This document shows positions 1-13,059 of a DNA stretch of 64,000 bases, piece by piece. Source of the DNA: Streptomyces sp. ALI-76-A (GTDB lineage: Bacteria; Actinomycetota; Actinomycetes; Streptomycetales; Streptomycetaceae); assembly GCF_030287445.1 (NCBI RefSeq), contig NZ_JASVWB010000002.1, positions 5,270,001 to 5,334,000 of the forward strand. The letters run 5' to 3'. Every line of letters begins with the position of its first letter. The first letter of the stretch is position 1. Both the position numbers and the translations under genes were made by a program. Under the pieces are notes generated by a model. It did not search any database. It saw only the letters and a list, made by a program, of their open reading frames with translations, and had not been told where the DNA came from.

Positions 1-91
1 GCAGGAATCTCCTCCGCTGTCGGTGGCCAGCCAGGAATTGGGTAGGCGGAAGTGAAGTTCGCCACCATCCAGTGGGGACCAACCTTCCTCA

Positions 92-814
92 TCAAAATGG
101 GATAGATGGGAAGTAGCTCCCCTTCTCTTGTGACCAGGATTCCTTCATCCGCAGGTGCCATGGCATGACGACCAGTTCGTAATCGAGGCCAATCCTACGC
201 GGATTTCCGGCCGCACCCCACCCTTTAACGGTCCAACGCCTATAGTGGTCCTGGAGAACTTCAAGCTTGCTTCGCAGGCAGTGCTTACCGAGTGGATGTG
301 TCGGATTCTTGGCCGCCAACGCCTCAGCTAGTTCATCTCGGTCGTAAGGGGCCAGGTTGGGGTGCCCCTCGTTAGCGATAATCCAATCCTGGGCCAGGCT
401 CAGTCTCAGCTCGCGTGTCAGTGCCTTCCAGACCTCCCGCTTTTTTCCGCGTTTTACGTTGGTCAACCAATTCGTGGCTGCGACGACAGGGCCATCCTCG
501 CCGAAATACGCTGCGAGCTCGGCATTCAGTACGTGCAGCCTCTGAAGGGATGACTCCAATAGACCGGAGTGTCTTGTCGTCTCAATCAATCTTTCAAAGC
601 ATGCTTTGGTCTGTGTTACTTCTCCGATCTTGTGATGCAGTACGCCTTGGAGGAAAAGGATATAGGCTCGTTCGTCCCCGTGAGCGTTTTGGAGCAGTGC
701 ATCAAGTTGACTGATGGCTCCCAGGGTATCGCCTCCAGTCGCAGCGCCAAAGGCGCGGTCTACATCTGGACTCGACTGAATGCCGTCGAAATGAAAAGAC
801 GTACCGGGGAAGAG
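92..814 (-). pseudogene. C-terminal half of frameshifted SEFIR protein
   Basis: This reading frame is open from just after a TAA at 815-817 to a TGA at 92-94. It has no convincing start codon at its beginning; a TTG at 589 is the first conventional one. The translation is helical and hydrophilic (QLDALLQNAHGDERAYILFL near its beginning), consistent with a repeat-type helical region, but I do not recognise a family. It begins inside the last codons of the upstream SEFIR frame, so the two most likely formed one protein of about 405 residues now split by a one-base loss between 814 and 763. After the stop, another frame (1-100) stays open to the window edge and reads like protein, which suggests a second frame break at the TTTT run near 92-97. 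Confidence 0.6.
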
Positions 815-1308
815 TTAGGTATTCCCAATTCGCTGGGGAGTTCGCCAGGGTCTCGTAGCAACACGTGTACCAGGCGAGCGATGTCTGCATCTCCCGTTTC
901 TCCGATTACAAACCAACTCGTCAGGTTTAGCGGTGGAGGGATGATGCTTGAGTCCTCAGCGCGAAGGACGACCGGGATGAATTTGGCGCGCTCTCTCCTG
1001 CTGTGATAGAGGTCTGCCGTAATTAGGGCGCCTTCCCATCGGACGCCGGACCCGATGCCTGGCCCCGTTTCTCGGTTGAAGCGCTTCACGTAATTTTCAG
1101 TGATGACCACGATTACGACATCTGACTTTTCGATCTCACGCCGCATCCAGTCGGGCCATGACTCAGGCGGGTTGTGCTCGTCGAACTGGTCTATCCAAGC
1201 GTCGACGCCTGCTTTGCGCAAGCGGTCTGCGAAGCGGCGGATGCTTTCTCTGTGGGCTTCACTGTCATGCGAGTAGGAGATCAGCGTTCGTGTGCTCGAC
1301 TTAGTCAT
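760..1308 (-). CDS. SEFIR (TIR-like) domain protein, truncated
   Basis: The product, 182 residues from the ATG at 1308, starts with a SEFIR domain: RTLISYSHDSEAH forms the first strand and loop, followed by DAWIDQFD, WPDWMRREIEKSD, and a GxGVRWEG-like element (GSGVRWEGALITADLY), ending in FIPVVL. SEFIR domains are TIR relatives; bacterial examples occur in signalling and anti-phage proteins, normally fused to a C-terminal sensor region. Here the frame ends soon after the domain at a TAG (760-762), in a short tail (LFISTAFSRVQM) that looks out of frame, while the neighbouring frame continues for 240 codons. The start at 1308 was preferred to 1332 because it has GGGGGA just upstream and begins at the domain. 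A defence role is inference from the family and from its place on a mobile element. Confidence 0.8.
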   Translation of the reverse strand: MTKSSTRTLISYSHDSEAHRESIRRFADRLRKAGVDAWIDQFDEHNPPESWPDWMRREIEKSDVVIVVITENYVKRFNRETGPGIGSGVRWEGALITADLYHSRRERAKFIPVVLRAEDSSIIPPPLNLTSWFVIGETGDADIARLVHVLLRDPGELPSELGIPNSSPVRLFISTAFSRVQM

Positions 1309-1610
1309 AAGTCCCCCGAGTGAACTGTGCATCGATCACGCAAGGTGAGACGCTCAGTTTATACGTCGGCTAGTTGCGGGTCAGCTACCTAGCTGCCCTC
1401 TCTTTGACACGCGTGTGGGCGGACGGGCAAGAGCTGCGATCGAAGCTACAGCGGCTTACACCTGTTGATCTACCGCAGGTCCCGTCGGTCCTGATCAGGC
1501 CGACCTGCCCAGCACTCGCCCGGACGAGCCGTGGACGGGCGGCAGCGCTGCGACTCGCAACTTCCCTATTTCCGCTGGTCAGCGCGATTCAACGCGCTCA
1601 CTCTTGTGAG
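1309..1610. other. Element terminal region without a gene
   Basis: I see no credible coding frame here. It is the segment between the SEFIR gene start and the tRNA-Tyr fragment. A TTGACA-like hexamer is present near 1404, and a small hairpin (CTCAC/GTGAG, 1597-1610) abuts the tRNA fragment. It would hold the element-side attachment arm sequences if the boundary interpretation is right. Confidence 0.4.
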
Positions 1611-1662
1611 GACTGTAAATCTGCCGGCTCAGCCTTCCCAGGTTCGAATCCTGGCGCCGCCA
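1611..1662 (+). repeat. 3' fragment of tRNA-Tyr (att site)
   Basis: The sequence runs from the anticodon loop (CTGTAAA, anticodon GTA) through the anticodon 3' strand TCTGC, a long variable arm, the T arm (CCAGGTTCGAATCCTGG) and the acceptor 3' strand CGCCGCC with discriminator A at 1662. The anticodon 5' strand, D arm and acceptor 5' strand are missing: upstream bases do not pair. It is therefore not a functional tRNA but the 3' identity segment used as an attachment core. Confidence 0.8.
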
Positions 1663-1672
1663 CACTGGGGAA

Positions 1673-1710
1673 GACCCCCTTCCTCTGCGGAAACGCAGAG
1701 GAAGGGGGTC
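1673..1710 (+). terminator. Intrinsic terminator after the tRNA-Tyr fragment
   Basis: A perfect 17-bp stem (1673-1689 with 1694-1710) closes a GAAA loop and is followed by a T-rich stretch. It sits 10 bases after the tRNA 3' end, as expected for the original chromosomal tRNA-Tyr terminator, which marks this side as the host flank. Confidence 0.8.
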
Positions 1711-1723
1711 TCTTCGTTGTGGC

Positions 1724-2481
1724 TCAGTCGTCGTGGCCAGTTCGATGGCGTGGTCGTCGAGGCGGGTGCCTGGCAGGGGCACCGTGGCGGCCCGGGGCGG
1801 AGTCGGAGAAGGCGTACGTACCGCCGAGGCCGGTCGTGCTGGTGGTGACGACGTTGCCCGCGGCGTCCATCAGGGGGACCAGCCGCGTCGCCCAGCGAGG
1901 CGTCCTGGCCGTGCGCCGTCCCGCACCTCCGCTCCAGGGCGCAGCTCGATCCGCCACTCGATCCGCCACAGGATCGCCACTCGGAAGACCCCGGTGCCGC
2001 CGATCTCGACGGGCAGGGCCAGCGGCCGGTGCTCGGGGGAGTTGACCGCGAGGGTCACGGTTCCCGGCACCAGGCCGGTGGTCGTGAAGGCGCCCAGGTG
2101 TATTGCCCTGGGAGCCGGTATGCAGCCCGCCAGGGCCTCACCGCGGACACCGCGGACGTCGGTCACGATGACCACGGCCTCCGCGGCCGGCGTGCCACCG
2201 CGGCCCCTTTGGGACCGGCGCGCCGCTGTCGGCGGACCCCGCAACGCCGGTGAGCCCGCTGGTGCCGCTCAGCGGCAGGTCGTACGCGACCGGGCTTCCC
2301 CGGCGACGACGAGCATCGAGGCCTGCGGCCGGTAGCCGTCGGCGCCGGCGATCAGGAGGTACGTCCCGGCACCGGGCACGTGCACGCCGTACGACCTGTC
2401 GTCGTGCAGCCCATCGCCGTACGCTCCGTCGCCGCGCGAGACCGACCGGCCGAGCTGCTTCCCGGCGCGTGGGATGGGCGT
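1724..2481 (-). pseudogene. Decayed carboxypeptidase-regulatory-like domain gene
   Basis: No single frame is intact, but recognisable pieces follow each other in order on the minus strand in successive frames: DGAYGDGLHDDRSYGVHVPG, then GTYLLIAGADGYRPQ, then AYDLPLSGTSGLTGV, then TTTGLVPGTVTLAVNSPEHR and ALPVEIGGTGVFRV, then LMDAAGNVVTTSTTG with GGTYAF. These are hallmarks of tandem carboxypeptidase regulatory-like (CarboxypepD_reg) beta-sandwich repeats, often C-terminal to transporters or secreted proteins in Streptomyces. At least three frame changes are needed to join them, and no start for a larger gene is visible, so I call it a remnant. The original full product cannot be told from what is left. 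Confidence 0.6.
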
Positions 2482-2544
2482 GATCGAGCGCCCGCGACGG
2501 GAATCCGTGACCGGAAACGCGCGGGGGCGGGGCACACTGGCCCC

Positions 2545-2757
2545 ATGTCCACGCGCCGCAGACACTGCCCTGAATGTCGTCGCGAGATCGCAGTCGTCGC
2601 CGGACGCTTCGCCCGGCACGACCCGCCCGGCGCACGCGAGAGCGGCCGGCTCGTCTCGTGCCCCGGCTCCCGCCGCCAGGCGGAACTCGGCGCCGCGCAG
2701 CCCGCGTTGGACGGGTACGAGGTTCCCGAGTTCCCGGGGCAGTTGTCCCTGTTCTAG
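2545..2757 (+). CDS. Small Cys-containing conserved protein
   Basis: The 70-residue product begins MSTRRRHCPECRREIAVVAG, contains a third Cys in LVSCPGS, and ends in PEFPGQLSLF. The CPEC pair plus the later Cys suggests a small metal-binding knuckle, though a fourth ligand is not obvious. Short proteins of this pattern are common and uncharacterised in Streptomyces. The ATG at 2545 was chosen because the longer upstream frame lacks protein-like character. It stands alone on the plus strand between minus-strand remnants. Function unknown. Confidence 0.6.
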   Translation: MSTRRRHCPECRREIAVVAGRFARHDPPGARESGRLVSCPGSRRQAELGAAQPALDGYEVPEFPGQLSLF

Positions 2758-3002
2758 GTACGCTCCGCGAGACCACGGCATCCGAGGCGTCCGCGGGCGA
2801 CTCCACCGACGAGGCGCAACCCGCCGGACCGACCGGCCTCCTCAGGCCGCGTACGCCCGCCGGCACCTCGTCAGGGCCGTGCAGCCGGACCGCCACCACG
2901 CACCGCGAGGGGGGAAGCGTCCCGTTCCGCCCGGCGGCGAAGAGCTCGTACATCCGCCGTAGCAGCGCCTCCCGCGCGGCAGGAACTCCTCGGCGGCCGA
3001 AG
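2758..3002. other. Gene-poor stretch
   Basis: A minus-strand frame with an ATG at 2953 (MYELFAAGRNGTLPPSRCVV) looks protein-like for some 50 residues and remains open upstream to about 3000, but then runs into unstructured Arg-rich translation. It could be another remnant. I do not support a gene here. Confidence 0.3.
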
Positions 3003-3659
3003 TCAGTTCCCCGCTACCGACTTGACCGCCACGGACACCGGCGTCGATCCGCCGACCAGCTCCAGGACCAGGCCGGCCGTCGCCGGCGTGTCCAGCAACT
3101 CCGCCAGTACGGCGGCCACGTCGTCGCGCGGGACGGCGCCGCGCCCCGTGTGCGCCTCCAGCCGGACGAGACCGGTGCCGGCGTCGTTCGTCAGGGAGCC
3201 GGGCCGCAGGATCGTCCAGTCCAGGCCCTCCAGACCGCTCACGTAGGCGTCGGCCTCGCCCTTGGCGCGCAGGTACACGTCGAAGACCTCGTCGCCCTGG
3301 TGCGCCGGATCCGCGCCCATCGACGACACGACCACATAGCGCCGTACGCCCGCCCGGACCGCCGCGTCCGCGAACAGCACCGCCGCGCCCCGGTCCACCG
3401 TGTCCTTGCGGGTCACACCGCTGCCCGGACCCGCGCCCGCGGCGAAGACCACCGCGTCCGCACCCCGAAGCCGCTCCGCGACCTCCTCGACCGAGGCCGA
3501 CTCCAGGTCCAGCAGCACCGGTTCGGCACCGGCCTGCCGCAGATCGTCGCCCTGTTCGGCACGGCGGATGATCCCCGCGACCTCGTTCCCGCGCCCGGCG
3601 AGCAACCGCTCCAGCCGCAGCGCGATCTGACCATGACCACCAGCGATGACAATGCGCAT
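3003..3659 (-). CDS. NAD(P)-binding Rossmann-fold protein (atypical SDR)
   Basis: The 218-residue product starts MRIVIAGGHGQIALRLERLL, a GxxGxxG dinucleotide-binding motif, followed by an acidic strand end (LLDLESASVEEV), ADAVVFAAGAGPGSG and RYVVVSSMGAD. This is the pattern of atypical short-chain dehydrogenases of the NAD(P)H-binding (SDR_a5, YwnB/YtfG-like) type, which bind cofactor and reduce or sense flavins or quinones; the substrate is unknown. The start at 3659 was chosen because the preceding 56 codons of open frame are not protein-like and the Rossmann strand normally begins at residue 1-5. It is on the same strand as the amidohydrolase but 214 bp away, so co-transcription is uncertain. 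Confidence 0.8.
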   Translation of the reverse strand: MRIVIAGGHGQIALRLERLLAGRGNEVAGIIRRAEQGDDLRQAGAEPVLLDLESASVEEVAERLRGADAVVFAAGAGPGSGVTRKDTVDRGAAVLFADAAVRAGVRRYVVVSSMGADPAHQGDEVFDVYLRAKGEADAYVSGLEGLDWTILRPGSLTNDAGTGLVRLEAHTGRGAVPRDDVAAVLAELLDTPATAGLVLELVGGSTPVSVAVKSVAGN

Positions 3660-3873
3660 GTTTCCGACCGTACGCCCGGACGGCCGCATTCGCCGCACAA
3701 CTCCGGCCACGCCCCAGGGGTGCACACACAAGGCACACATGTGGGCGGCGCGCAGGACGCGCAGACCAGGCGAACAAGCCCCCGCGCGCACGCCGGGCGC
3801 GATCTCATCACGGAGCGCGGCACCCACGCCCCTCTACAACAACTCCCGCTGACACCCCCCTGCGACACCTCCC

Positions 3874-5157
3874 CTACGACACCTCCCCCCGCCCCCGCCC
3901 CTGCCGCGGCAGCCCCAGCTCCGTCGCCGCGGGGGAGTCGCAGTACTCCCGCACCGCGCTCGTCCGCGCCACCACGCGCCCCCGATGGATCACGATCCGG
4001 CTGTACGCCAGGGACAGCGCCCCCGCGAGCCCGTCACCCCGTACCGCGAGCAACTCGGCCGGGAAGCCCGCCTCCACCCGTACCTCCGGGAGACCCAGCA
4101 CCGCCCGCGCGGACGCGCTCACCGCGTCGTACGCGTCCTCGGGCCGCAGACCGTGCCGGGACACCAGCAGATAGGCGGCTTCCAGGGGATCGCCGCGTCC
4201 CACGGGATTCGACACGTCCCTCAGGGCGCCACTGCCGGCGGCCACCCGCACCCCGGCCGCACGCAGCAGCCGTACCGGAGCCGTGCTCCGACGTTCGACG
4301 CCCCCGCAACCGCCCTGGGGCAGGCACACCACCGCCACGCCGGCCGCCGCGAGCTGGTCGGCGGTCCGGGCGACCACCTCGGCGGGCAACCGGTCCAGTC
4401 CGCCGCACGGCGTGAGCGTCACCCCCGGACGCAGCCCGCCGGCCATCGCGGCGAGCCGGGCCAGGCGGGCCGGATCGGTGGCGTCGGTGTGCAGGTCGAC
4501 CGGGCAGCCGTGTTCGGAGGCGACCTCCAGAGCCGCCTCCACATAACCCGTCGGGTCCGGATCCAGATCCGGACAACCGCCCACCACGGAGGCGCCCATC
4601 TTCACCGCGTCCCGCAGCACCGCGAGCCCGTCTGCGCCGGCCACCCCGGTCAGCATCCTGGGCATCGCCACCGTCGTCACCTCCGTCAGCCCGCGCAGCG
4701 TACGCCGCGCCCGGAGGACGGCGGTCAGCGCGCCGAGCCCCTGCACGTCACCCACGCGCACGTGTGCCCGCAACGCCGTCGCCCCGTGCCCGAGCTGGAG
4801 CAGAGCGGCCTCCGTGGCCCGTCGCTGGACGTCCTCGGTGTCGTACGAGACCGGTCCCTCGGCGTCGGCCGACAGGGCGGTGTCACCGTGGGCGTGCGGC
4901 TCGGCCGGGGCCGGCAGGAGCAGATAGCCGCCGAGGTCGACGCGGACGGCTCGCGCGCGCGAGCCGTCCGCCGTGAGGCTCCCGGCCGTGCCGACCGCCT
5001 CGATGCGCCCGCCGACCAGCCGTACGTCCACCGTCCGGCCGTCGGCGAGCCGCGCCCCGTAGAGCAGCACAGCGGCCCCCTCGGCGGGGGAGGAACCAGA
5101 CGAGGCCGACGAGGAACCCGAGGACGAGTGCGGCGGCTGCGGCTGACTGTCGGGCAT
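3874..5157 (-). CDS. Amidohydrolase-superfamily enzyme (cytosine deaminase-like)
   Basis: This 427-residue protein has a Ser-rich N-terminal leader (residues 10-25), then a small beta-sandwich (LLYGARLADGRTVDVRLVGG) and the barrel entry PAPAEPHAHGDTAL, whose HAH is the first metal-ligand pair of the superfamily. Further barrel features are GGCPDLDPDPTG, VDLHTDATDP and AAGSGALRDVSNPVGRGDP. The composite outer domain returns at the end (GFPAELLAVRGD). The layout resembles cytosine deaminase or related cyclic-amide deaminases. The HxD-like metal site near the end (GSGALRDV) lacks the usual HD order, so the exact substrate and even activity are unsure. No neighbour suggests a pathway. Confidence 0.75.
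   Translation of the reverse strand: MPDSQPQPPHSSSGSSSASSGSSPAEGAAVLLYGARLADGRTVDVRLVGGRIEAVGTAGSLTADGSRARAVRVDLGGYLLLPAPAEPHAHGDTALSADAEGPVSYDTEDVQRRATEAALLQLGHGATALRAHVRVGDVQGLGALTAVLRARRTLRGLTEVTTVAMPRMLTGVAGADGLAVLRDAVKMGASVVGGCPDLDPDPTGYVEAALEVASEHGCPVDLHTDATDPARLARLAAMAGGLRPGVTLTPCGGLDRLPAEVVARTADQLAAAGVAVVCLPQGGCGGVERRSTAPVRLLRAAGVRVAAGSGALRDVSNPVGRGDPLEAAYLLVSRHGLRPEDAYDAVSASARAVLGLPEVRVEAGFPAELLAVRGDGLAGALSLAYSRIVIHRGRVVARTSAVREYCDSPAATELGLPRQGRGRGEVS
4942..4971. repeat. 30-bp perfect palindrome inside the amidohydrolase gene
   Basis: Positions 4942-4956 are exactly complementary to 4957-4971, centred on alternating CG. It encodes the ADGSRARAVR stretch, so it may be a by-product of codon use, but perfect symmetry over 30 bases is noteworthy. 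Confidence 0.75.
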
Positions 5158-5411
5158 CGCGCTCCAAGGGCAGGGGGCTCAGGACGAGGGGCTCAAGTCC
5201 CTGGCGTGGGCTCGGGGACTCAAGGGCGTGATCCGGGGGCTCCGCGAGAGGGCGCAAGATCACGCAGAGTGAGTCGAGCCTAGGGTGACGGCGCGGTTCC
5301 GCCGGGGAGGAGCGCAATAGTCGTACCGGTGTGGTCCGCCGTGGTGGAGGGGGCTCCCGAGGCTCCTGGGACCAGCGCGGAACAGGGCGGGACGGGGGCC
5401 GCGAAACGGAT

Positions 5412-5441
5412 TTGGGCGAACGGCTGCCGAGCGTGTAATGT
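5412..5441 (+). promoter_or_regulatory. Promoter of tRNA-Thr/tRNA-Met
   Basis: A TTGGGC hexamer (5412-5417) and TAATGT (5436-5441) are separated by 18 bp, and the predicted start near 5448 is a few bases before the tRNA-Thr 5' end. Confidence 0.55.
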
Positions 5442-5452
5442 CTTCATCGCTC

Positions 5453-5525
5453 GCCCCAATAGCTCAGTCGGTAGAGCGTCTCCATGGTAAGGAGAAGGTC
5501 TACGGTTCGATTCCGTATTGGGGCT
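5453..5525 (+). tRNA. tRNA-Thr (GGT)
   Basis: Acceptor strands GCCCCAA (5453-5459) and TTGGGGC (5518-5524) pair fully. The D arm AGCTCAGTCGGTAGAGC, an anticodon stem TCTCC/GGAGA around loop ATGGTAA, and a T arm ACGGTTCGATTCCGT are all present. The anticodon is GGT. CCA is not encoded. It is 46 bp upstream of tRNA-Met, probably in one transcript. Confidence 0.95.
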
Positions 5526-5571
5526 CTGGTGTGAAAGGTTCCCGTCGCGAGGCGGGAACCGATCACATCGC

Positions 5572-5644
5572 AGCGGTGTAGCTCAGTCGGTAGAGCAAGC
5601 GGCTCATAATCGCTGTGTCACCGGTTCAAGTCCGGTCACCGCTA
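5572..5644 (+). tRNA. Elongator tRNA-Met (CAT)
   Basis: AGCGGTG (5572-5578) pairs with CACCGCT (5637-5643), discriminator A. The anticodon loop is CTCATAA and the T arm CCGGTTCAAGTCCGG. The full seven-pair acceptor and absence of initiator-type GC triplet in the anticodon stem favour the elongator form. rpmG follows 96 bp downstream. Confidence 0.93.
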
Positions 5645-5740
5645 CTGACAGTAGCCGATTGTGGGGTCGGTCCTTCGATCGGCTACTCTTCATGCGTTGT
5701 ATGCGTTAACCGTCCCATCCGTTCGTCAAGGAGCACTCAC

Positions 5741-5905
5741 GTGGCTGCCACCGACGTCCGCCCGAAGATCACGCTGGCCTGCGTGGAGTGCAAGGAGCGG
5801 AACTACATCACCAAGAAGAACCGGCGTAACAACCCGGACCGACTGGAGATGAAAAAGCACTGCCCGCGTTGCAATGCGCACACCGCGCATCGCGAAACGC
5901 GATAA
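5741..5905 (+). CDS. rpmG: 50S ribosomal protein L33 (zinc type)
   Basis: The 54-residue basic protein carries two zinc-ligand pairs, C14-x2-C17 and C41-x2-C44, with the L33 core [19 protein letters not shown] between them. The GTG at 5741 is preceded by AAGGAG at 5729-5734. It lies after two tRNA genes and before the dehydratase pair, the same order seen around mycobacterial rpmG2-hadABC. Because it keeps its cysteines it is the zinc-containing paralogue; zinc-free forms in Streptomyces are normally elsewhere under Zur control. Confidence 0.97.
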
Positions 5906-5916
5906 AACAGGCTCGT

Positions 5917-5955
5917 ACACGAGGCCGCCCCCGCAGTCGGGGGGCGGCCTCGTGT
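5917..5955 (+). terminator. Terminator after rpmG
   Basis: A 16-bp perfect stem (5917-5932 with 5940-5955) and a seven-base loop start 11 bases after the rpmG stop. Confidence 0.75.
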
Positions 5956-6014
5956 CGTTCCCGGCCCGGTTACCGGCCGGTCAACCGCAGCATGAGATCA
6001 GGAGGTGCCGGGCC

Positions 6015-6467
6015 ATGGCGCTCGACCAGTCCTTCGTGGGGCGGACGTACCCGCCCACCGAGCCCTACGAGGTGGGCCGGGAGAAGATCCGTGAGTTCGC
6101 CGAGGCCGTGGGGGACACCAACCCGGCCTACACGGACCCCGAGGCCGCCAAGGCACTCGGTCACCCCGATGTGATCGCCCCGCCGACCTTCGTGTTCTCC
6201 CTCACCTTCAGGGCGGCGGGACAGGTCGTCCAGGACCCGAGGCTCGGCCTGGACTACAGCCGTGTGGTGCACGGTGACCAGAAGTTCGCCTACGTCCGCC
6301 CCGTGCGCGCCGGCGACCGGCTGACCGTGACCTCGACCATCGAAGCCGTCAAGTCCATGGCGGGCAACGACATCCTGGACATCCGCGGCGAGGTCCACGA
6401 CGAGACCGGCGAGCACGTCGTGACCGCCTGGACCAAGCTGGTCGCCCGCGCGGCCGAGGGAGCGTGA
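6015..6467 (+). CDS. MaoC-like dehydratase subunit (HadA/UPF0336 type)
   Basis: The 150-residue protein is an N-terminal MaoC (FAS1-like) hot-dog domain: MALDQSFVGRTYPPTEPYEV, IREFAEAVGDTNPAY, then APPTFVFSL and HGDQKFAYVRPVRAGDRL. In mycobacteria the matching HadA subunit pairs with HadB to make the (3R)-hydroxyacyl-ACP dehydratase. HadA-type subunits lack the catalytic D-H dyad and provide the acyl tunnel, which agrees with the missing DxNPIH motif here. The ATG at 6015 follows GGAGG at 6001-6005. Only 7 bp separate it from the next gene, so the two are surely translated from one message. Role in Streptomyces fatty-acid or polyketide metabolism is inferred. Confidence 0.88.
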   Translation: MALDQSFVGRTYPPTEPYEVGREKIREFAEAVGDTNPAYTDPEAAKALGHPDVIAPPTFVFSLTFRAAGQVVQDPRLGLDYSRVVHGDQKFAYVRPVRAGDRLTVTSTIEAVKSMAGNDILDIRGEVHDETGEHVVTAWTKLVARAAEGA

Positions 6468-6474
6468 ACATTCG

Positions 6475-6903
6475 ATGACGGCGAAGATCGCTTACGACGA
6501 CGTCGAGGTCGGCACCGAACTGCCCGCCCAGGCCTTCCCGGTGACCCGCGACACCCTGGTCCGGTACGCGGGCGCGTCCGGGGACTTCAACCCGATCCAC
6601 TGGAACGAGAAGTTCGCCAAGGAGGTCGGGCTGCCGGACGTCATCGCGCACGGCATGTTCACCATGGCCGAGGCGATCCGCGTGGTCACCGACTGGACCG
6701 GTGACCCCGGCGCGGTCGTCGAGTACGGCGTCCGCTTCACCAAGCCCGTAGTCGTCCCGAACGACGACCAGGGCGCCACCGTCGAGGTCAGCGCGAAAGT
6801 GGCGGCCAAGCTCGACGACCACACGGTCCGCGTGGACCTCACGGCGACCAGCGCGGGACAGAAGGTGCTGGGGATGTCCCGGGCCGTCGTACGACTGGCC
6901 TGA
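6475..6903 (+). CDS. MaoC-like dehydratase catalytic subunit (HadB type)
   Basis: The 142-residue hot-dog protein contains the hydratase-2 motif GDFNPIHWNEKFAKEVGLPD with the catalytic Asp and His, followed by VIAHGMFTMAEAIR. The C-terminal strand region (VEYGVRFTKPVVVPNDD) matches MaoC folds. With the preceding gene it should form a heterodimeric R-specific 3-hydroxyacyl-thioester dehydratase. The start ATG lies 7 bp after the partner stop. The downstream 343 bp, then murB, is a separate unit. Confidence 0.9.
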   Translation: MTAKIAYDDVEVGTELPAQAFPVTRDTLVRYAGASGDFNPIHWNEKFAKEVGLPDVIAHGMFTMAEAIRVVTDWTGDPGAVVEYGVRFTKPVVVPNDDQGATVEVSAKVAAKLDDHTVRVDLTATSAGQKVLGMSRAVVRLA

Positions 6904-7008
6904 GACGGGACACCGTAGGCGCAGGGGCCTGGAGACTCCGTCCCCAGGCCCCGCTTCGGCTTTCCTGGACCAGCACCACCAGAGGGCCGCTCCCGCGTAC
7001 GGCGGGAA

Positions 7009-7119
7009 GGGGACGGGTCGGGGGTGTCCGCCCGCAGCGGTTGTCGCGTCAACGCAGGGCACGTCGGTGAGCAACCGATTCCGCGACGTTCCGAGGACGG
7101 ACACCCCCGACCCGTCCCC
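7009..7119. repeat. Nested inverted repeats upstream of murB
   Basis: A 22-bp sequence at 7009-7030 is repeated exactly in inverted orientation at 7098-7119, 67 bp apart. Inside, CGGTTG (7038-7043) and CAACCG (7072-7077) form a second pair. The whole can fold as one long arm with an inner hairpin. The gap 6904-7246 contains no credible gene; the rest is C-rich (7110-7230). Confidence 0.8.
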
Positions 7120-7233
7120 GACCCCCCACCCGACCGAACGCGCTACGCGCGCCCCCACCCACCCCCACAGGCCGCCGCAGGCATCACACCCCACACCCCC
7201 GCATGCGCCCCACCCACCCGCACCCCCGTCTCG

Positions 7234-7239
7234 TAGTCT
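7234..7239 (+). promoter_or_regulatory. Leaderless -10 element of murB
   Basis: TAGTCT ends exactly 7 bp before the GTG at 7247, so transcription would begin at the start codon. No ribosome site precedes the GTG, which supports leaderless expression. Confidence 0.55.
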
Positions 7240-7246
7240 TGTGCGC

Positions 7247-8302
7247 GTGCAGGTACTCCACGACGCCCCCCTCGCCCCGCTCACCACCTTCCGGCTGGGC
7301 GGTCCCGCCGCCCGGCTGGTCACCGCGGCGACCGACGCCGAGGTGATCGCCGCCGTCCGCGAGGCCGACGACACCGGCACCCCGCTGCTGATCATCGGCG
7401 GTGGATCGAACCTCGTCATCGGGGACCAGGGCTTCGACGGCACCGCCCTCGTCATCGCCACCAAGGGCTTCGCCCTCGACGGCACCCACCTGGAGCTGGC
7501 CGCCGGCGAAGTGTGGACGGACGCCGTCGCCCGCACCGTCGGCCAGGGACTCGCCGGCGTCGAGTGCCTCGCCGGTATCCCCGGTTCGGCCGGCGCGACC
7601 CCCATCCAGAACGTCGGGGCGTACGGCCAGGAGGTCTCGTCGACGATCACCGAGGTGATCGTCTACGACCGCACCGCCCAGGAGACGGTCACCCTCACCA
7701 ACGAGGAGTGCGCCTTCTCCTACCGGCACAGCCGCTTCAAGGCCGACCCCCAGCGCTACGTCGTCCTGCGCGTCCGCTTCGCCCTGGAGGACGCGGACGG
7801 CCTCTCGGCACCGATCAAGTACGCCGAGACGGCCCGTGCCCTCGGCGTCGAACCCGGTGACCGCGTCCCCCTGGCCGCCGCCCGCGAGACCGTCCTCGAG
7901 CTGCGTTCAGGCAAGGGCATGGTCCTGGACCCCGAGGACCACGACACCTGGTCCGCAGGCTCGTTCTTCACCAACCCCATCCTCACCGAGGAGGAGTTCG
8001 CCGCCTTCCACGCGCGCGTGCGCGACCGCCTCGGCGACGGCGTGCGGCCGCCCGCATATCCGGCGGGGGAGGGCCACACGAAGACCTCCGCCGCCTGGCT
8101 GATCGACAAGGCCGGCTTCGCCAAGGGTTACGGCACCGGCCCCGCCCGCATCTCCACCAAGCACACCCTCGCCCTCACCAACCGGGGCGGGGCCAGCACC
8201 GAGGACCTGCTCGCCTTGGCCCGCGAGGTCGTCACCGGCGTCCACGAAGCCTTCGGAATCACCCTGGTCAACGAGCCGGTGACGGTCGGCGTAAGCCTCT
8301 GA
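7247..8302 (+). CDS. murB: UDP-N-acetylenolpyruvoylglucosamine reductase
   Basis: MurB reduces UDP-GlcNAc-enolpyruvate to UDP-MurNAc with NADPH and FAD in cytoplasmic peptidoglycan precursor synthesis. The 351-residue protein opens with LAPLTTFRLGGPA, has the FAD site IIGGGSNLVIGD, GLAGVECLAGIPGSAGATP with QNVGAYGQEV, the SYRHSRFK segment, and the C-terminal GSFFTNPIL whose Ser is the proton donor, then SAAWLIDKAGFAKG. Type I length and loop content fit actinobacterial MurB. The frame is open further upstream but that part is Pro-rich noise; GTG at 7247 is placed exactly 7 bp after a -10 hexamer (GTG at 7241 is an alternative). Confidence 0.96.
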   Translation: MQVLHDAPLAPLTTFRLGGPAARLVTAATDAEVIAAVREADDTGTPLLIIGGGSNLVIGDQGFDGTALVIATKGFALDGTHLELAAGEVWTDAVARTVGQGLAGVECLAGIPGSAGATPIQNVGAYGQEVSSTITEVIVYDRTAQETVTLTNEECAFSYRHSRFKADPQRYVVLRVRFALEDADGLSAPIKYAETARALGVEPGDRVPLAAARETVLELRSGKGMVLDPEDHDTWSAGSFFTNPILTEEEFAAFHARVRDRLGDGVRPPAYPAGEGHTKTSAAWLIDKAGFAKGYGTGPARISTKHTLALTNRGGASTEDLLALAREVVTGVHEAFGITLVNEPVTVGVSL

Positions 8303-8349
8303 GCCCGGGGCCGGACGCCACCCCCGCCACCTCCCCCCCCCACACCGCC

Positions 8350-9381
8350 CTACGCCGCCAGCCAGTCGTCCACCCCCGCCAGCAGCTTGCTCTTCGTCTC
8401 CTCCGGCGCCGCCGACGCCCGGATCGACTGACGGGCCAGTTCCGCCAGCTCCCGGTCGGTGAAGGCGTGGTACTCCCGCGCGAACTCGTACTGGTCCGCC
8501 AGCCGGGAGCCGAAGAGGAGCGGGTCGTCGGCACCCAGAGCCATCGGCACCCCCGCCTCGAACAGCGTCCGCAGCGGCACGTCCTCCGGCTTCTCGTAGA
8601 CGCCGAGGGCCACGTTCGACGCCGGGCAGACCTCGCAGGTCACCCCCCGGTCCGCCAGCCGCCGCAGCAGCCGCGGGTCCTCCGCCGCCCGCACACCGTG
8701 CCCCAGCCGGTGCGCGTGCAGGTCGTCCAGACAGTCACGCACCGACGCCGGGCCGCCCAGTTCCCCGCCGTGCGGGGCCGACAGCAGCCCTCCCTCCCGT
8801 GCGATGGCGAACGCGCGGTCGAAGTCCCGTGCCATCCCCCGGCGTTCGTCGTTCGACAGGCCGAAGCCGACGACCCCCCGGTCCGCGTATCGCACCGCGA
8901 GGCGGGCCAGTGTGCGCGCGTCCAGCGGGTGCTTCATCCGGTTCGCCGCGACCAGGACGCGCATGCCGAGGCCGGTCTCCCGGGACGTCGACTCCACCGC
9001 GTCGAGGATGATCTCCAGGGCCGGGATCAGACCGCCCATGCGAGGCGCGTACGACGTCGGGTCCACCTGGATCTCCAGCCAGCCGGCCCCGTCCCGCACG
9101 TCCTCCTCCGCGGCCTCCCGGACCAGGCGCCGGATGTCCTCCGGCTCCCGCAGGCACGAGCGGGCGGCGTCGTACAGGCGCTGGAAGCGGAACCAGCCCC
9201 GCTCGTCCGTCGCCCGCAGCTTCGGCGGTTCCCCGCTGGTCAGCGCTTCCGTCAGCGCCTCGGGCAGGCGCACACCGTACTTGTCGGCCAGTTCCAGCAC
9301 GGTGCCGGGTCGCATCGACCCCGTGAAGTGCAGGTGCAGATGGGCTTTGGGCAGCTCAGAGACATCACGTACACGCTCCAT
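8350..9381 (-). CDS. add: Adenosine deaminase
   Basis: The enzyme converts adenosine to inosine in purine salvage. In 343 residues it shows the zinc HxH in LPKAHLHLHFTGSMRPGT, the middle metal region SAPHGGELGG, HRLGHGVRAAEDPRLL, VCPASNVALGVY and the final metal Asp region ALGADDPLLFGS. The order and spacing match adenosine deaminases; adenine or 6-aminodeoxyfutalosine deaminases are related alternatives. The start at 9381 was chosen at the ELPKAHLHLH boundary; CAGGAT lies 6 bp upstream of the ATG, compatible with a leaderless message. It faces murB tail to tail. Confidence 0.88.
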   Translation of the reverse strand: MERVRDVSELPKAHLHLHFTGSMRPGTVLELADKYGVRLPEALTEALTSGEPPKLRATDERGWFRFQRLYDAARSCLREPEDIRRLVREAAEEDVRDGAGWLEIQVDPTSYAPRMGGLIPALEIILDAVESTSRETGLGMRVLVAANRMKHPLDARTLARLAVRYADRGVVGFGLSNDERRGMARDFDRAFAIAREGGLLSAPHGGELGGPASVRDCLDDLHAHRLGHGVRAAEDPRLLRRLADRGVTCEVCPASNVALGVYEKPEDVPLRTLFEAGVPMALGADDPLLFGSRLADQYEFAREYHAFTDRELAELARQSIRASAAPEETKSKLLAGVDDWLAA

Positions 9382-9455
9382 TCCAGGATCCTGCCGTACG
9401 TCCCCCACCCACCGGTAGCGCTTTCCCCGAACGTGGTCTTGCTCGCACAAAGACA

Positions 9456-9489
9456 GGGGACCACCTAGGAACGTTCCTAGGTGGTCCCC
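9456..9489 (-). terminator. 34-bp perfect palindrome between aspC and add
   Basis: The 34 bases are identical to their own reverse complement, centred on AACGTT. It lies 22 bp after the aspartate aminotransferase stop and can form a strong hairpin, so I read it as that gene's terminator. Confidence 0.7.
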
Positions 9490-9511
9490 GGTGACCGTCC
9501 GGTGACGGATG

Positions 9512-10738
9512 TCAGTCCGTGGCCTCCGCCAGCAGCTTCTGGATCCGGCTGACGCCCTCGGCCAGGTCCTCGTCACCCAGCGCGTACGACAGCCGCAGAT
9601 ACCCCGGCGTGCCGAAGGCCTCGCCGGGAACGACCGCGACCTCGGCCTCCTCCAGGATCAGCGCGGCCAACTCGACCGTGTCCCGCGGACGCCTGCCGCG
9701 GATCTCCTTGCCGAGCAGGGCCTTGACCGAGGGGTACGCGTAGAACGCGCCCTCCGGCTCCGGGCAGAGCACGCCGTCGATCTCGTTCAGCATCCGCACG
9801 ATGGTCTTGCGGCGGCGGTCGAAGGCCTCCCGCATCCGCGCGACGGCGTCCAGGTCGCCGGAGACCGCGGCCAGGGCCGCGACCTGCGCGACGTTGGAGA
9901 CGTTCGACGTGGCGTGCGACTGGAGGTTCGTCGCCGCCTTCACGACGTCCTTCGGGCCGATGATCCAGCCGACCCGCCAGCCCGTCATCGCGTATGTCTT
10001 GGCGACACCGTTGACCACGACGCACTTGTCCCGCAGCTCCGGCAGGATCGCGGGCAGCGAGGTGAACGTCGCGTCGCCGTAGACGAGGTGCTCGTAGATC
10101 TCGTCCGTCATCACCCACAGGCCGTGCTCGACGGCCCAGCGGCCGATCGCCTCGGCGTCCTCGGCGCTGTAGACCGCGCCGGTGGGGTTGGAGGGGGAGA
10201 CGAAGAGGACGACCTTGGTGTTCTCGGTGCGGGCGGCCTCCAGCTGCTCCACCGAGACGCGGTAGCCGGTCGTCTCGTCGGCGACGACCTCGACCGGGAC
10301 ACCGCCGGCCAGACGGATCGACTCCGGGTACGTCGTCCAGTACGGCGCCGGGACGATGACCTCGTCGCCCGGGTCGAGGATCGCGGCGAAGGCCTCGTAG
10401 ATGGCCTGCTTCCCGCCGTTGGTGACCAGGATCTGCGAGACGTCCGGCTCGTAGCCCGAGTCGCGCAGCGTCTTCGCGGCGATCGCTGCCTTCAACTCGG
10501 GCAGGCCGCCGGCCGGCGTGTAGCGGTGGTACTTCGGGTTCTTGCAGGCCTCGACCGCGGCCTCGACGATGTAGTCCGGGGTCGGGAAGTCGGGCTCACC
10601 GGCGCCGAAGCCGATCACCGGACGCCCGGCGGCCTTGAGTGCCTTGGCCTTGGCGTCCACGGCGAGGGTGGCGGACTCGGAGATCGCGCCGACTCGGGCG
10701 GAGACCCGGCGCTCGGTGGGAGGGGTTGCAGGGCTCAT
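9512..10738 (-). CDS. aspC: PLP-dependent aspartate aminotransferase
   Basis: This class I aminotransferase of 408 residues transfers the amino group between aspartate and 2-oxoglutarate (or prephenate in some actinobacteria). Features are [15 protein letters not shown] (residues 43-57), the phosphate-loop [33 protein letters not shown] with the Asn that binds [14 protein letters not shown], and [16 protein letters not shown] whose Lys247 should form the Schiff base. RLSYALG carries the substrate carboxylate Arg. It occurs upstream of tRNA-Trp and secE-nusG in Streptomyces. The alternative reading is a related broad-specificity aromatic aminotransferase. Confidence 0.92.
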
Positions 10739-10872
10739 GGGCCCATCGTTTCAGACCGGAAACCTCCCCGGCACGCGGGTTTCACGGACTGAACACCGAC
10801 TGGACAACCGTCCGGATCCGTCGCCCACGCTGGGCGATCTTCCCGAGCGGAGTCCCCCACGGGCGCTTTCTG

Positions 10873-10902
10873 TTCGACGACGGCTCCCGAACCACGTACA
10901 CT
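10873..10902 (+). promoter_or_regulatory. Possible promoter upstream of tRNA-Trp/secE
   Basis: TTCGAC (10873-10878) and TACACT (10897-10902) are 18 bp apart, within the 249-bp gap between the divergent aspC start and tRNA-Trp. Confidence 0.4.
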
Positions 10903-10987
10903 CTCACCTCGTTGGCCTTCAGCGGGCTGCGCTCGACCGGTGCACACCGAGCACTCGGTCGGATGCGGTACGTTGGGGGACGGACAA

Positions 10988-11060
10988 AGGGTCGTAGCTC
11001 AATTGGTAGAGCACTGGTCTCCAAAACCAGCGGTTGGGGGTTCAAGTCCCTCCGGCCCTG
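10988..11060 (+). tRNA. tRNA-Trp (CCA)
   Basis: AGGGTCG (10988-10994) pairs with CGGCCCT (11053-11059) with one G-U, and the discriminator is G, as usual for Trp. The anticodon stem CTGGT/ACCAG encloses CTCCAAA. The T arm is GGGGGTTCAAGTCCCTC. The tRNA-Trp-secE-nusG order is conserved in actinobacteria. Confidence 0.95.
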
Positions 11061-11170
11061 CTACACACACCTTCGCCAGGATGTGTGCACGCATGTACGT
11101 ACAGAAATGCACCGCCGTGCGGCTCAGACCGGGCGCGGCACGGCCACGACCCGGGAACAGGTGAGGACGA

Positions 11171-11458
11171 ATGGCGGACGCCGTGGGCTCCATCGATACG
11201 CCTGATGCCCAGGACGAGGCGCCGGAGTCCCAGAAGAGGACTCGTAAGGGCGGCAAGCGAGCCAAGAAGGGCCCGCTGAAGCGTCTCGCGTTGTTCTACC
11301 GTCAGATCGTCGCGGAGCTCCGCAAGGTCGTCTGGCCGTCGCGCGGCCAGTTGACGACGTACACGACCGTGGTGATCATCTTCGTGATCGTGATGATCGG
11401 CCTGGTGACCTTGATTGACTATGGGCTCGACCACGCCGCCAAGTACGTATTCGGCTGA
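11171..11458 (+). CDS. secE: Preprotein translocase subunit SecE
   Basis: SecE clamps SecY in the membrane. The 95-residue product has a hydrophilic, Lys-rich N-terminus and one C-terminal membrane helix (TTVVIIFVIVMIGLVTLI, roughly residues 66-84) after the conserved amphipathic segment AELRKVVWPSRGQL. This one-helix short form is standard in Gram-positive bacteria. It is 81 bp upstream of nusG and likely co-transcribed with it. Confidence 0.96.
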   Translation: MADAVGSIDTPDAQDEAPESQKRTRKGGKRAKKGPLKRLALFYRQIVAELRKVVWPSRGQLTTYTTVVIIFVIVMIGLVTLIDYGLDHAAKYVFG

Positions 11459-11539
11459 GCACAGAGCGAAGGGCGCCGCGGTTACCGGCGCCCGTTTTCG
11501 CATGTTCCACCCCTATGTATCCAGGAAGAAGCAGCCACC

Positions 11540-12442
11540 GTGTCTGACCAGAACCTGAACGACGCCATCGAGCCACACGGGCAGGACGTCGAGTCCGTGG
11601 AAGACGAGCTCGAGATCGTCGAGGGCGCGGACGAGGACCTGGACGAGGTCGAGGCTGCCGACGCCGAGGCGGGCGAGCCCGCGGAGGAAGCCGCGCTCCA
11701 CGTCGAGGACGAGGAGACGGAAGCCACGGAAGCCGTCGAGGACGAGGCCACCGAGGACGAGGCTGACGCCGAGGCTGACGCCGAAGCCGAGGCCGAGGCC
11801 GAGGAAGAAGAGTCGGCCGAGCCCGTCGACCCCGTCGCCGCCCTGCGCGAGGAGCTGCGCACCCTGCCCGGCGAGTGGTACGTCATCCACACCTACGCCG
11901 GCTACGAGAACCGCGTGAAGACCAACCTCGAGCAGCGCGCCGTCTCGCTGAACGTCGAGGACTTCATCTTCCAGGCCGAGGTGCCCCAGGAAGAGGTCGC
12001 GCAGATCAAGAACGGCGAGCGCAAGACCATCCGTCAGAACAAGCTCCCCGGCTACGTGCTGGTGCGCATGGACCTGACGAACGAGTCCTGGGGTGTCGTC
12101 CGCAACACCCCCGGTGTCACCGGCTTCGTGGGCAACGCCTACGACCCGTACCCGCTGACCCTGGACGAGATCGTCAAGATGCTCGCCCCGGAGGCCGAGG
12201 AGAAGGCCGCCCGTGAGGCCGCCGAGGCCGAGGGCAAGCCGGCTCCGGCTCGCAAGGTCGAGGTCCAGGTCCTGGACTTCGAGGTCGGCGACTCGGTCAC
12301 CGTCACCGACGGCCCGTTCGCCACGCTGCAGGCGACCATCAACGAGATCAACGCCGACTCGAAGAAGGTCAAGGGCCTCGTGGAGATCTTCGGCCGCGAG
12401 ACGCCGGTCGAGCTGTCCTTCGACCAGATCCAGAAGAACTAG
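11540..12442 (+). CDS. nusG: Transcription termination/antitermination protein NusG
   Basis: NusG binds RNA polymerase and links it to Rho or the ribosome. The 300-residue protein has a long acidic N-terminal extension (about residues 1-100, mostly Glu, Asp and Ala), then the NGN domain beginning [16 protein letters not shown] with [13 protein letters not shown] and [10 protein letters not shown], a charged linker, and the C-terminal KOW domain ([20 protein letters not shown]) ending FDQIQKN. The acidic extension is typical of actinobacteria. The GTG start at 11540 follows GGAAGAAG. Confidence 0.96.
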
Positions 12443-12476
12443 AACCGTCACCGGTCTCTTCCTGGACCCACCGCGT

Positions 12477-12527
12477 CCGAGCAGGTCAGAGGGGCTGTCC
12501 AAAGCCCGTCTGACCTGCTCGGTTTTT
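12477..12527 (+). terminator. Intrinsic terminator after nusG
   Basis: A 14-bp stem (12477-12490 with 12509-12522) is followed by TTTTT. It lies between nusG and rplK, so it separates or attenuates the two. Confidence 0.8.
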
Positions 12528-12624
12528 AGCCGCGCATCTATACCCGTTATCGTTGTGCGGTATGCCTTCATCTGGGACGCGACCCAGGTGGGGGTAGACC
12601 CGAATCGAAAGGACCCGGAGAGCA

Positions 12625-13059
12625 ATGCCTCCCAAGAAGAAGAAGGTCACGGGGCTCATCAAGCTCCAGATCCAGGCCGGTGCCGCCAACCCGGCTCCGC
12701 CGGTCGGCCCGGCGCTGGGTCAGCACGGCGTCAACATCATGGAGTTCTGCAAGGCCTACAACGCCGCGACCGAGTCGCAGCGTGGCTGGGTCATCCCGGT
12801 GGAGATCACGGTCTACGAGGACCGCTCCTTCACCTTCATCACCAAGACGCCGCCGGCCGCCAAGATGATCCTCAAGGCCGCGGGCGTGGAGAAGGGCTCC
12901 GGCGAGCCGCACAAGACCAAGGTCGCCAAGATCACCCAGGCTCAGGTCCGCGAGATCGCCGAGACCAAGATGCCCGACCTCAACGCCAACGACCTGGACG
13001 CCGCCGCGAAGATCATCGCTGGTACCGCGCGTTCCATGGGCGTCACGGTCGAGGGCTGA
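12625..13059 (+). CDS. rplK: 50S ribosomal protein L11
   Basis: L11 forms the GTPase-associated stalk base with 23S rRNA and is where thiostrepton acts. The 144-residue sequence has the N-terminal domain with the Pro-rich linker motif [20 protein letters not shown] and the C-terminal RNA-binding domain [16 protein letters not shown] ending in [13 protein letters not shown]. Length and residues are typical. It is followed by rplA after 93 bp, the classical L11 operon. Confidence 0.98.

Follow-up and report, generated by a model that had tools for sequence, protein, structure and literature searches.

The 64,000-nucleotide stretch of Streptomyces DNA analysed here (the window; G000:C2:5270001-5334000) begins with the pieces of a broken SEFIR/TIR-domain gene, followed by the 3' part of a tRNA-Tyr gene, a terminator, and a chromosomal segment. 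The DNA to its left was read from an overlapping region of the same contig (L004; C2:5252501-5272500), in which a window position equals the L004 position minus 17,500 (Table 1).

Table 1. Features at the tRNA-Tyr locus, given in window coordinates unless L004 is stated.
Feature	Coordinates	Strand	Evidence or remark
C-terminal piece of the broken SEFIR/TIR gene, third frame	1..161	-	47% to G215 protein residues 382-436; extends beyond the window's left edge
Middle piece of the same gene, other frame	92..808	-	36% to G215 protein residues 195-382; three-frame translation
N-terminal piece of the same gene (bSEFIR-type)	760..1308	-	PADLOC, Pfam, structure match, G215 homologue
attR-proximal, right-hand end of the integrated element (16.67 kb)	1..1610	.	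between both 55-bp repeat copies; remainder at G000:C2:5254941-5270000, to the left
attR copy of the 55-bp direct repeat	1611..1665	+	identical to L004 2441-2495
Displaced tRNA-Tyr 3' part, from just 5' of the anticodon loop to the discriminator base	1611..1662	+	sequence; complete gene at attL
Original tRNA-Tyr terminator, stranded at attR	1672..1711	+	hairpin; equivalent one in L039, 3' of its uninterrupted tRNA-Tyr
Chromosome right of the site: tRNA-Thr, tRNA-Met, rpmG, MaoC-type gene, murB, adenosine deaminase, tRNA-Trp, secE, nusG, rplK	1666..13059	.	ARAGORN, Pfam
int, tyrosine integrase	L004 2646-4016	-	PF00589, 27.4 bits vs cut-off 27.1; barely passes
xis-like HTH	L004 4007-4216	-	HTH_17
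493-aa protein beside Prim-Pol, Rep-like candidate	L004 4673-6154	-	Walker-type motif by eye
Prim-Pol	L004 6151-6996	-	PF09250, 1.3e-9, 39.2 bits vs cut-off 22.8
Methyltransferase-like	L004 6993-7685	-	best Pfam match under cut-off
Small proteins	L004 7775-8704	-	
tra, FtsK-type	L004 8846-11026	-	family profile
RRQRL zinc-binding protein	L004 11266-11619	-	
ORF	L004 11601-12458	-	
ORF	L004 12455-12799	-	
PycTM-like membrane protein	L004 12796-13245	-	PF18967, 6e-13
DUF6284	L004 13242-13511	-	
HTH protein	L004 14423-15196	+	weak DUF5919 match
NUDIX	L004 15199-15672	+	Pfam
HD	L004 15660-16289	-	Pfam
GntR	L004 16228-16689	-	Pfam
PDC-M50A small membrane protein, low-G+C cargo	L004 17058-17423	-	just outside the window
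Broken SEFIR gene, low-G+C cargo	L004 17431-18808	-	

ARAGORN calls three tRNA genes in the window (Thr, Met and Trp) and no tRNA-Tyr. A second copy of the tRNA-Tyr piece is present on the same strand of the same genome (C2:5254941-5254998; 58 bp, 98% identity), and it is covered by a complete tRNA-Tyr (GTA) gene (L004 2411-2493, ARAGORN) that lies 16.67 kb upstream of the fragment. A preliminary description of this DNA had taken positions 1611-1662 for a tRNA-Tyr 3' piece without a 5' half, a reading that the complete upstream copy bears out to the base; the second copy of 1611-1662 that it had called for exists, and the exact direct repeat extends 3 bp beyond 1662 and comprises 55 bp (L004 2441-2495 and window 1611-1665, same strand, spacing 16,670 bp). 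When the whole 9.69-Mb genome is searched by pattern with up to three mismatches, the tRNA-Tyr 3' half occurs at these two places only, which excludes a chance origin of the repeat; the tRNA-Tyr at attL is the only such gene of the host that is detectable by its 3' half. The terminator described downstream of the fragment is indeed present, with a stem of 18 bp rather than 17 and a folding energy of -44.2 kcal/mol for positions 1664-1716, and a hairpin of -43.3 kcal/mol lies inside the element 3' of the attL tRNA-Tyr. Since hairpins follow both the attL tRNA-Tyr and the stranded attR copy, a terminator has been retained on each side.

On the left, the chromosomal flank carries a DUF520 gene and a gene for a transglycosylase-associated protein (Pfam). 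On the right, the genes rpmG-murB-secE-nusG-rplK, previously placed just downstream of the tRNA fragment, were all recovered by Pfam, at a greater distance than that wording implies: the boundary is about 4 kb away from rpmG and 9.5 kb away from secE. This is also the gene order that we take to follow the SLP1 insertion site in S. coelicolor. A segment of about 0.8 kb immediately right of attR (window 1712-2527) contains overlapping, degraded-looking ORFs and is missing in several empty-site relatives; the one ORF examined in it (1870-2244) matches no Pfam family at 1e-5.

The joined flanks of the element align without a break in 17 of 29 loci from relatives (L038-L066, BLASTN). At least one of these 17, L057, is nevertheless occupied, as an int gene adjoins the tRNA in its genome (G061) and a second copy follows 15 kb further on; because this occupied locus also aligns across the join, a short match past the repeat is by itself no proof of emptiness. 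In nine of the 17 (L039, L040, L041, L049, L053, L054, L058, L064, L066), the next matching chromosomal stretch lies about 60-130 bp from the tRNA (BLASTN), and these nine loci prove an uninterrupted tRNA-Tyr site. The preliminary description had assigned everything left of position 1610 to an integrated element, and had named what ought then to be found: a complete tRNA-Tyr to the left, an integrase and an excisionase gene beside it, a second att copy within 30 kb, and strains that lack the element. The 55-bp repeats that bound the DNA, the integrase gene and the excisionase-like gene beside attL, the second att copy 16.67 kb away, and the joined sites of the relatives agree with that assignment in every respect, and the contrary findings that it had listed (a complete tRNA-Tyr in place of the fragment, or no integrase or second att copy within about 30 kb) were not encountered.

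The G+C content of the 16.67-kb element is 54-58% in L004 17001-19000, compared with mostly 65-75% elsewhere in it. The int gene ends about 150 bp inside attL and adjoins the complete tRNA-Tyr. The 493-aa protein encoded beside Prim-Pol matches no Pfam, NCBIfam or PADLOC model; it is a candidate Rep by virtue of its position and a Walker-type motif seen by eye. A profile built from 16 homologues of the Tra protein matches FtsK structures at 1.2e-12, PF01580 is found in 11 of these 16, and the Walker-type residues are invariant in the family; the element's own Tra, compared singly, stays below the PF01580 threshold and matches FtsK/TraB/EccC models and structures at 5e-6 to 2e-3, so that its assignment is clear only by the family profile. 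A membrane protein of the PycTM (Pycsar effector) type sits in the transfer/spread region of the element, left of the window; such a protein is encoded in nine of 41 regions, the present one included (tblastn), and Pfam scans of the element's proteins found no cyclase for it.

According to the accessible part of a published survey (PMC3218068), AICEs are recognized by Int, Rep and Tra genes within one region and by an int gene that adjoins the att site; their replication genes are of the RepSA, RepAM or Prim-Pol type, and their transfer protein is of the FtsK/SpoIIIE type. At the present locus, int (L004 2646-4016) adjoins an attL (2441-2495) in the 3' end of a tRNA gene, the replication gene is of the Prim-Pol type (PF09250), and the transfer protein belongs to an FtsK/SpoIIIE-type family. 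It is thus highly probable, in our judgement, that window positions 1-1665 represent the attR end of an integrated 16.67-kb AICE at the site used by SLP1, with the mechanism and the cargo proposed here. By analogy with known AICEs, the integrase would have recombined a circular attP, equipped with a tRNA-Tyr 3' half and terminator, with the chromosomal tRNA-Tyr; in this way the one tRNA-Tyr found in the genome would owe its present 3' half and terminator to the element, and the native versions of both would have been displaced to attR. Excision would be carried out by Int together with Xis, replication of the circle by Prim-Pol and the neighbouring Rep-like protein, and the transfer of double-stranded DNA between hyphae by the FtsK-type Tra, and the GntR, NUDIX and HD proteins may serve regulation or exclusion. 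The attR-proximal 2.4 kb would constitute accessory cargo, made up of the broken SEFIR/TIR gene and the small membrane-protein gene of a defence-candidate family.

Judged from its open backbone frames, the element is probably still mobile. That it is instead a decaying AICE, no longer transmissible, with intact ends and some function lost in a way that reading frames do not reveal, appears rather unlikely to us. The twofold break in the cargo gene would fit such decay, as would the short form at the same site in L172 (10.5 kb between the copies), the remnants at the site in G040 with int fragments just past the second copy, and the AICE decay and frequent cargo pseudogenes reported in the accessible part of PMC9513070; the open frames from int to GntR and the identity of the att repeats speak against it.

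The 3' ends of tRNA genes serve many phages as integration sites, and in four of 30 int loci a tRNA-Ser gene stands beside int instead; both facts would suit a prophage, a phage satellite or a non-conjugative integrative element at the same tRNA-Tyr. We regard this as very improbable, since an FtsK-type Tra is present together with Prim-Pol, NUDIX, HD and GntR modules, and Pfam scans of 20 element proteins found no structural phage gene. Lower still, at a level that we consider negligible, stands the idea that 1611-1662 is an old partial tRNA duplication in which no integrated element was ever involved: probable tRNA gene remnants at att sites are mentioned in the accessible part of the AICE survey (PMC3218068), yet the partner copy, the adjacent integrase and the empty sites in relatives argue against it. 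This last candidate was rejected on account of the second att copy with its adjacent integrase.

The N-terminal piece of the broken cargo gene matches the PADLOC model bSEFIR (1.5e-38; model positions 39-185 of 412), the Pfam families TIR_2 (3.1e-17) and SEFIR (2.2e-14), and the solved SEFIR-domain protein 5y8e (9.5e-9), and it shares 46% identity with an intact protein from the genome G215 (residues 3-163); for the two later pieces, no PADLOC model gives a match. The G215 homologue comprises 455 aa from its likely start and is directly followed by an M50A homologue. Along this protein the three pieces fall one after another (residues 3-163, 195-382, 382-436), every one in a frame of its own, and an intact SEFIR-domain protein is not encoded here; because the in-order pieces lie in three frames, the gene has either been broken twice or the assembly contains two indels. 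The open frames of the backbone speak for a real pseudogene, and in one Streptomyces population pseudogenes were reported at 42% for AICE cargo versus 7% for the core genome (PMC9513070, accessible part). Likeness to the bSEFIR anti-phage system, to which the PADLOC model refers, lies in the SEFIR domain, whereas the broken frame and the small membrane protein that follows set the present locus apart. The right-end cargo has no nucleotide BLAST match among loci L007-L146, and in the 40 other fetched regions tblastn (1e-5) detects SEFIR in none and M50A in one, L176. A limited search of open-licence papers found none that joins bSEFIR and Streptomyces.

TIR- or SEFIR-type genes occur close to M50A homologues in at least nine further loci (L176, L190, L195, L202, L210, L211, L212, L213, L216), mostly read by eye among the matches listed; several additional copies have a HIT-family gene nearby instead. 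The genome studied here possesses a second M50A homologue (G000:C2:7713498-7713821; 45% identical) far from the element.

The variability of the attR end was assessed across 38 elements by counting, for each 50-bp bin, the other elements that share it. These 38 were profiled from 41 oriented regions (L169, L172 and L179 were dropped), nine of them anchored at attR only, and the same-contig pairs G172, G065 and G182 were left out of the comparison. In elements complete at both ends, the bins 0.5-1.5 kb from attL are common to 29 of the 37 others on average, a conservation that is partly built in because the elements were collected through Int; the telling contrast is that between the attR end and the middle of the elements. 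At 0.5-2 kb from attR, mean sharing in elements complete at both ends is 1.4-1.5, with 78-82% of the bins common to at most one other element, as compared with 14-24% at 8-12 kb from attR. Toward attR, the G+C content drops to 0.59-0.61 from a level of about 0.70. The median length of the private right segment is 3.6 kb (range 0.3-10.7); in the present element, the 1.5-kb stretch between 15.0 and 16.5 kb after attL is common to no other profiled element, and in L159 and L163 there is almost no private segment (about 0.3 kb), from which no frame was obtained.

Cargo frames were picked by length and codon-position bias, a procedure that may include false frames, and 87 of 121 right-end frames, two of them from the present element, were scanned with PADLOC at 1e-5. 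The controls consisted of 87 of 220 mid-element frames, a few of which derive from long right-end segments (e.g. L167:8062-9672, L171:7734-8888, L152:10792-11814), and of 56 chromosomal ORFs from the window, a set rich in ribosomal genes. The right-end frames matched 290 PADLOC models, the mid-element frames 77 and the chromosomal ORFs three. These figures refer to models rather than to frames with a match, and related models inflate them, a single ATPase having matched 87. Among the 25 of the 77 mid-element models listed, methyltransferase models prevail, headed by mad8 (11 frames) and SspH (4). Twenty right-end frames were also scanned singly, namely the largest per element in the first 20 elements by number that gave a frame, the present one excluded; some of these lie 4-8 kb from attR. 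Ten of them have no PADLOC match, three match HTH-type or control-protein models only, and seven match other models, two of these weakly (L155, L166) and five below 1e-15: PtuA/PDC-M01A (4e-204, L148), HEC-01A (8.5e-28, L149), PDC-M32A/B (1e-165, L150), PDC-S39 (2e-16, L151) and a type IV restriction enzyme (1e-104, L157). SLP1's own restriction gene stands 'near attR' (PMC3009677, accessible part). Taken together, the shared-bin profile, the PADLOC scans and the position of the SLP1 gene make the attR bay look like a pattern of the group and not the quirk of one element; from the sequence comparisons, its content looks like defence-type genes in good part, though not in all. The bay lies at the end opposite int, where, as we infer, insertions may cost the element least.

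A more far-reaching reading, to which we would assign even chances, connects these observations. The AICEs at tRNA-Tyr would possess a fixed bay at attR, opposite the integrase, that is refilled in almost every element with a different low-G+C, often defence-type cassette, so that a single att site would deliver exchangeable immunity. In the present element, the cassette would consist of a SEFIR/TIR sensor and PDC-M50A, paired for TIR-type signalling through a membrane effector; its SEFIR half would since have been inactivated. Within the accessible text of open-licence papers, no report of a fixed cargo position in AICEs was found.

The preliminary description had called the element SLP1-like, which holds for the site, the regeneration of the tRNA at attL, the size and the Prim-Pol/Tra gene plan; it is not thereby shown to be SLP1 itself. 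In the accessible parts of the literature, SLP1 (Gi-11, SCO4615-SCO4631) occupies the Tyr-tRNA GTA site of S. coelicolor A3(2) with a repeat of 112 bp (PMC1934918), and it restores tRNA-Tyr at attL and leaves behind a repeat at attR; its excision is precise, and its sco4631 lies near attR (PMC3009677). The element described here likewise resides in tRNA-Tyr (GTA), with a regenerated tRNA at attL and a direct repeat at attR, and the two are further alike in size (17.1 kb for SLP1 versus 16.7 kb), in a Prim-Pol gene adjoined by another gene of replication type, and in an anti-foreign-DNA gene near attR (PMC3009677, PMC1934918, PMC3218068). They differ in the repeat (112 bp in SLP1, PMC1934918, versus 55 bp here) and in the gene near attR, which is the methyl-directed restriction gene ScoMcrA in SLP1 as described and a SEFIR/TIR pseudogene with a small membrane-protein gene here. 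Among plasmid records, nine contain relatives of int, all below 60% identity (best 50% over 98% of the query). Among the best 80 of 155 loci, from which S. coelicolor A3(2) is absent, the nearest named relative is that of S. cellulosae NRRL B-2687 (L067/L166), which also has a complete tRNA-Tyr beside int and whose Int and Xis are each 99% and regulatory genes 81-98% identical; this element differs in having another type of transfer module (Tra 26%) and a different attR cargo gene with a weak DzbB match. The element of G011 shares the site, an Int of 80% identity and a membrane protein of the M50A family near attR, and differs in its 20.2 kb between copies and in a different TIR-like gene near M50A (read by eye).

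An AICE at the SLP1 site is of a kind already known, and AICE phage-resistance cargo, frequent cargo pseudogenization and the presence of different elements at one site have been published (PMC9513070, accessible part). What is new is modest: a further member of the AICEs, cargo composed of a broken SEFIR gene and the adjacent membrane-protein gene, and an attR bay that can be measured across 38 elements. The boundary between chromosome and mobile element is now fixed for this genome, the host's only detectable tRNA-Tyr gene ends in element-supplied sequence, and the 2-4 kb before attR at the tRNA-Tyr site are a suggested place to seek new Streptomyces defence genes.

Integrases of this broad family occur in 98 of 150 genomes of the genus (E <= 1e-30), and the tRNA-Tyr query with its upstream flank is matched in 149 of the 150, the genome studied here being included in both counts. 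In the 30 int loci fetched, again including the present one, tRNA-Tyr (GTA) was called in 16, tRNA-Ser in four and no tRNA in ten, among them L009 (71% Int; tRNA copy 1.9 kb away), L010 (68% Int) and L019 (55% Int). The tRNA 3' half is present in all 53 genomes searched for it, which were chosen for possessing such an integrase; counted from the listing, at least two same-strand copies lie on one contig in 41 genomes, copies lie on different contigs only in eight, and a single copy is found in four. Three copies on one contig in G154, G157, G162 and G173 may be read as signs of tandem insertion or of remnants, and three copies are spread over contigs in G151 and G168. At L161 (G040:C1:6242400-6262390), the int fragments just past the second copy are a sign of tandem accretion at tRNA-Tyr. 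The extended att repeat measures 51-75 bp in 27 of 31 two-copy regions and 101-118 bp in the other four, one of which is L154, where the match extends over the hairpin 3' of the tRNA; owing to these long repeats, the 112 bp published for SLP1 fall within the range of the group. Whole-genome matches to Prim-Pol in G000 number eleven, the element's own included, which suggests that the strain harbours additional AICEs or elements related to them. In L177 (G098), 2.0 kb rather than 0.3 kb separate int and the tRNA, and cargo may thus be insertable on the attL side as well.
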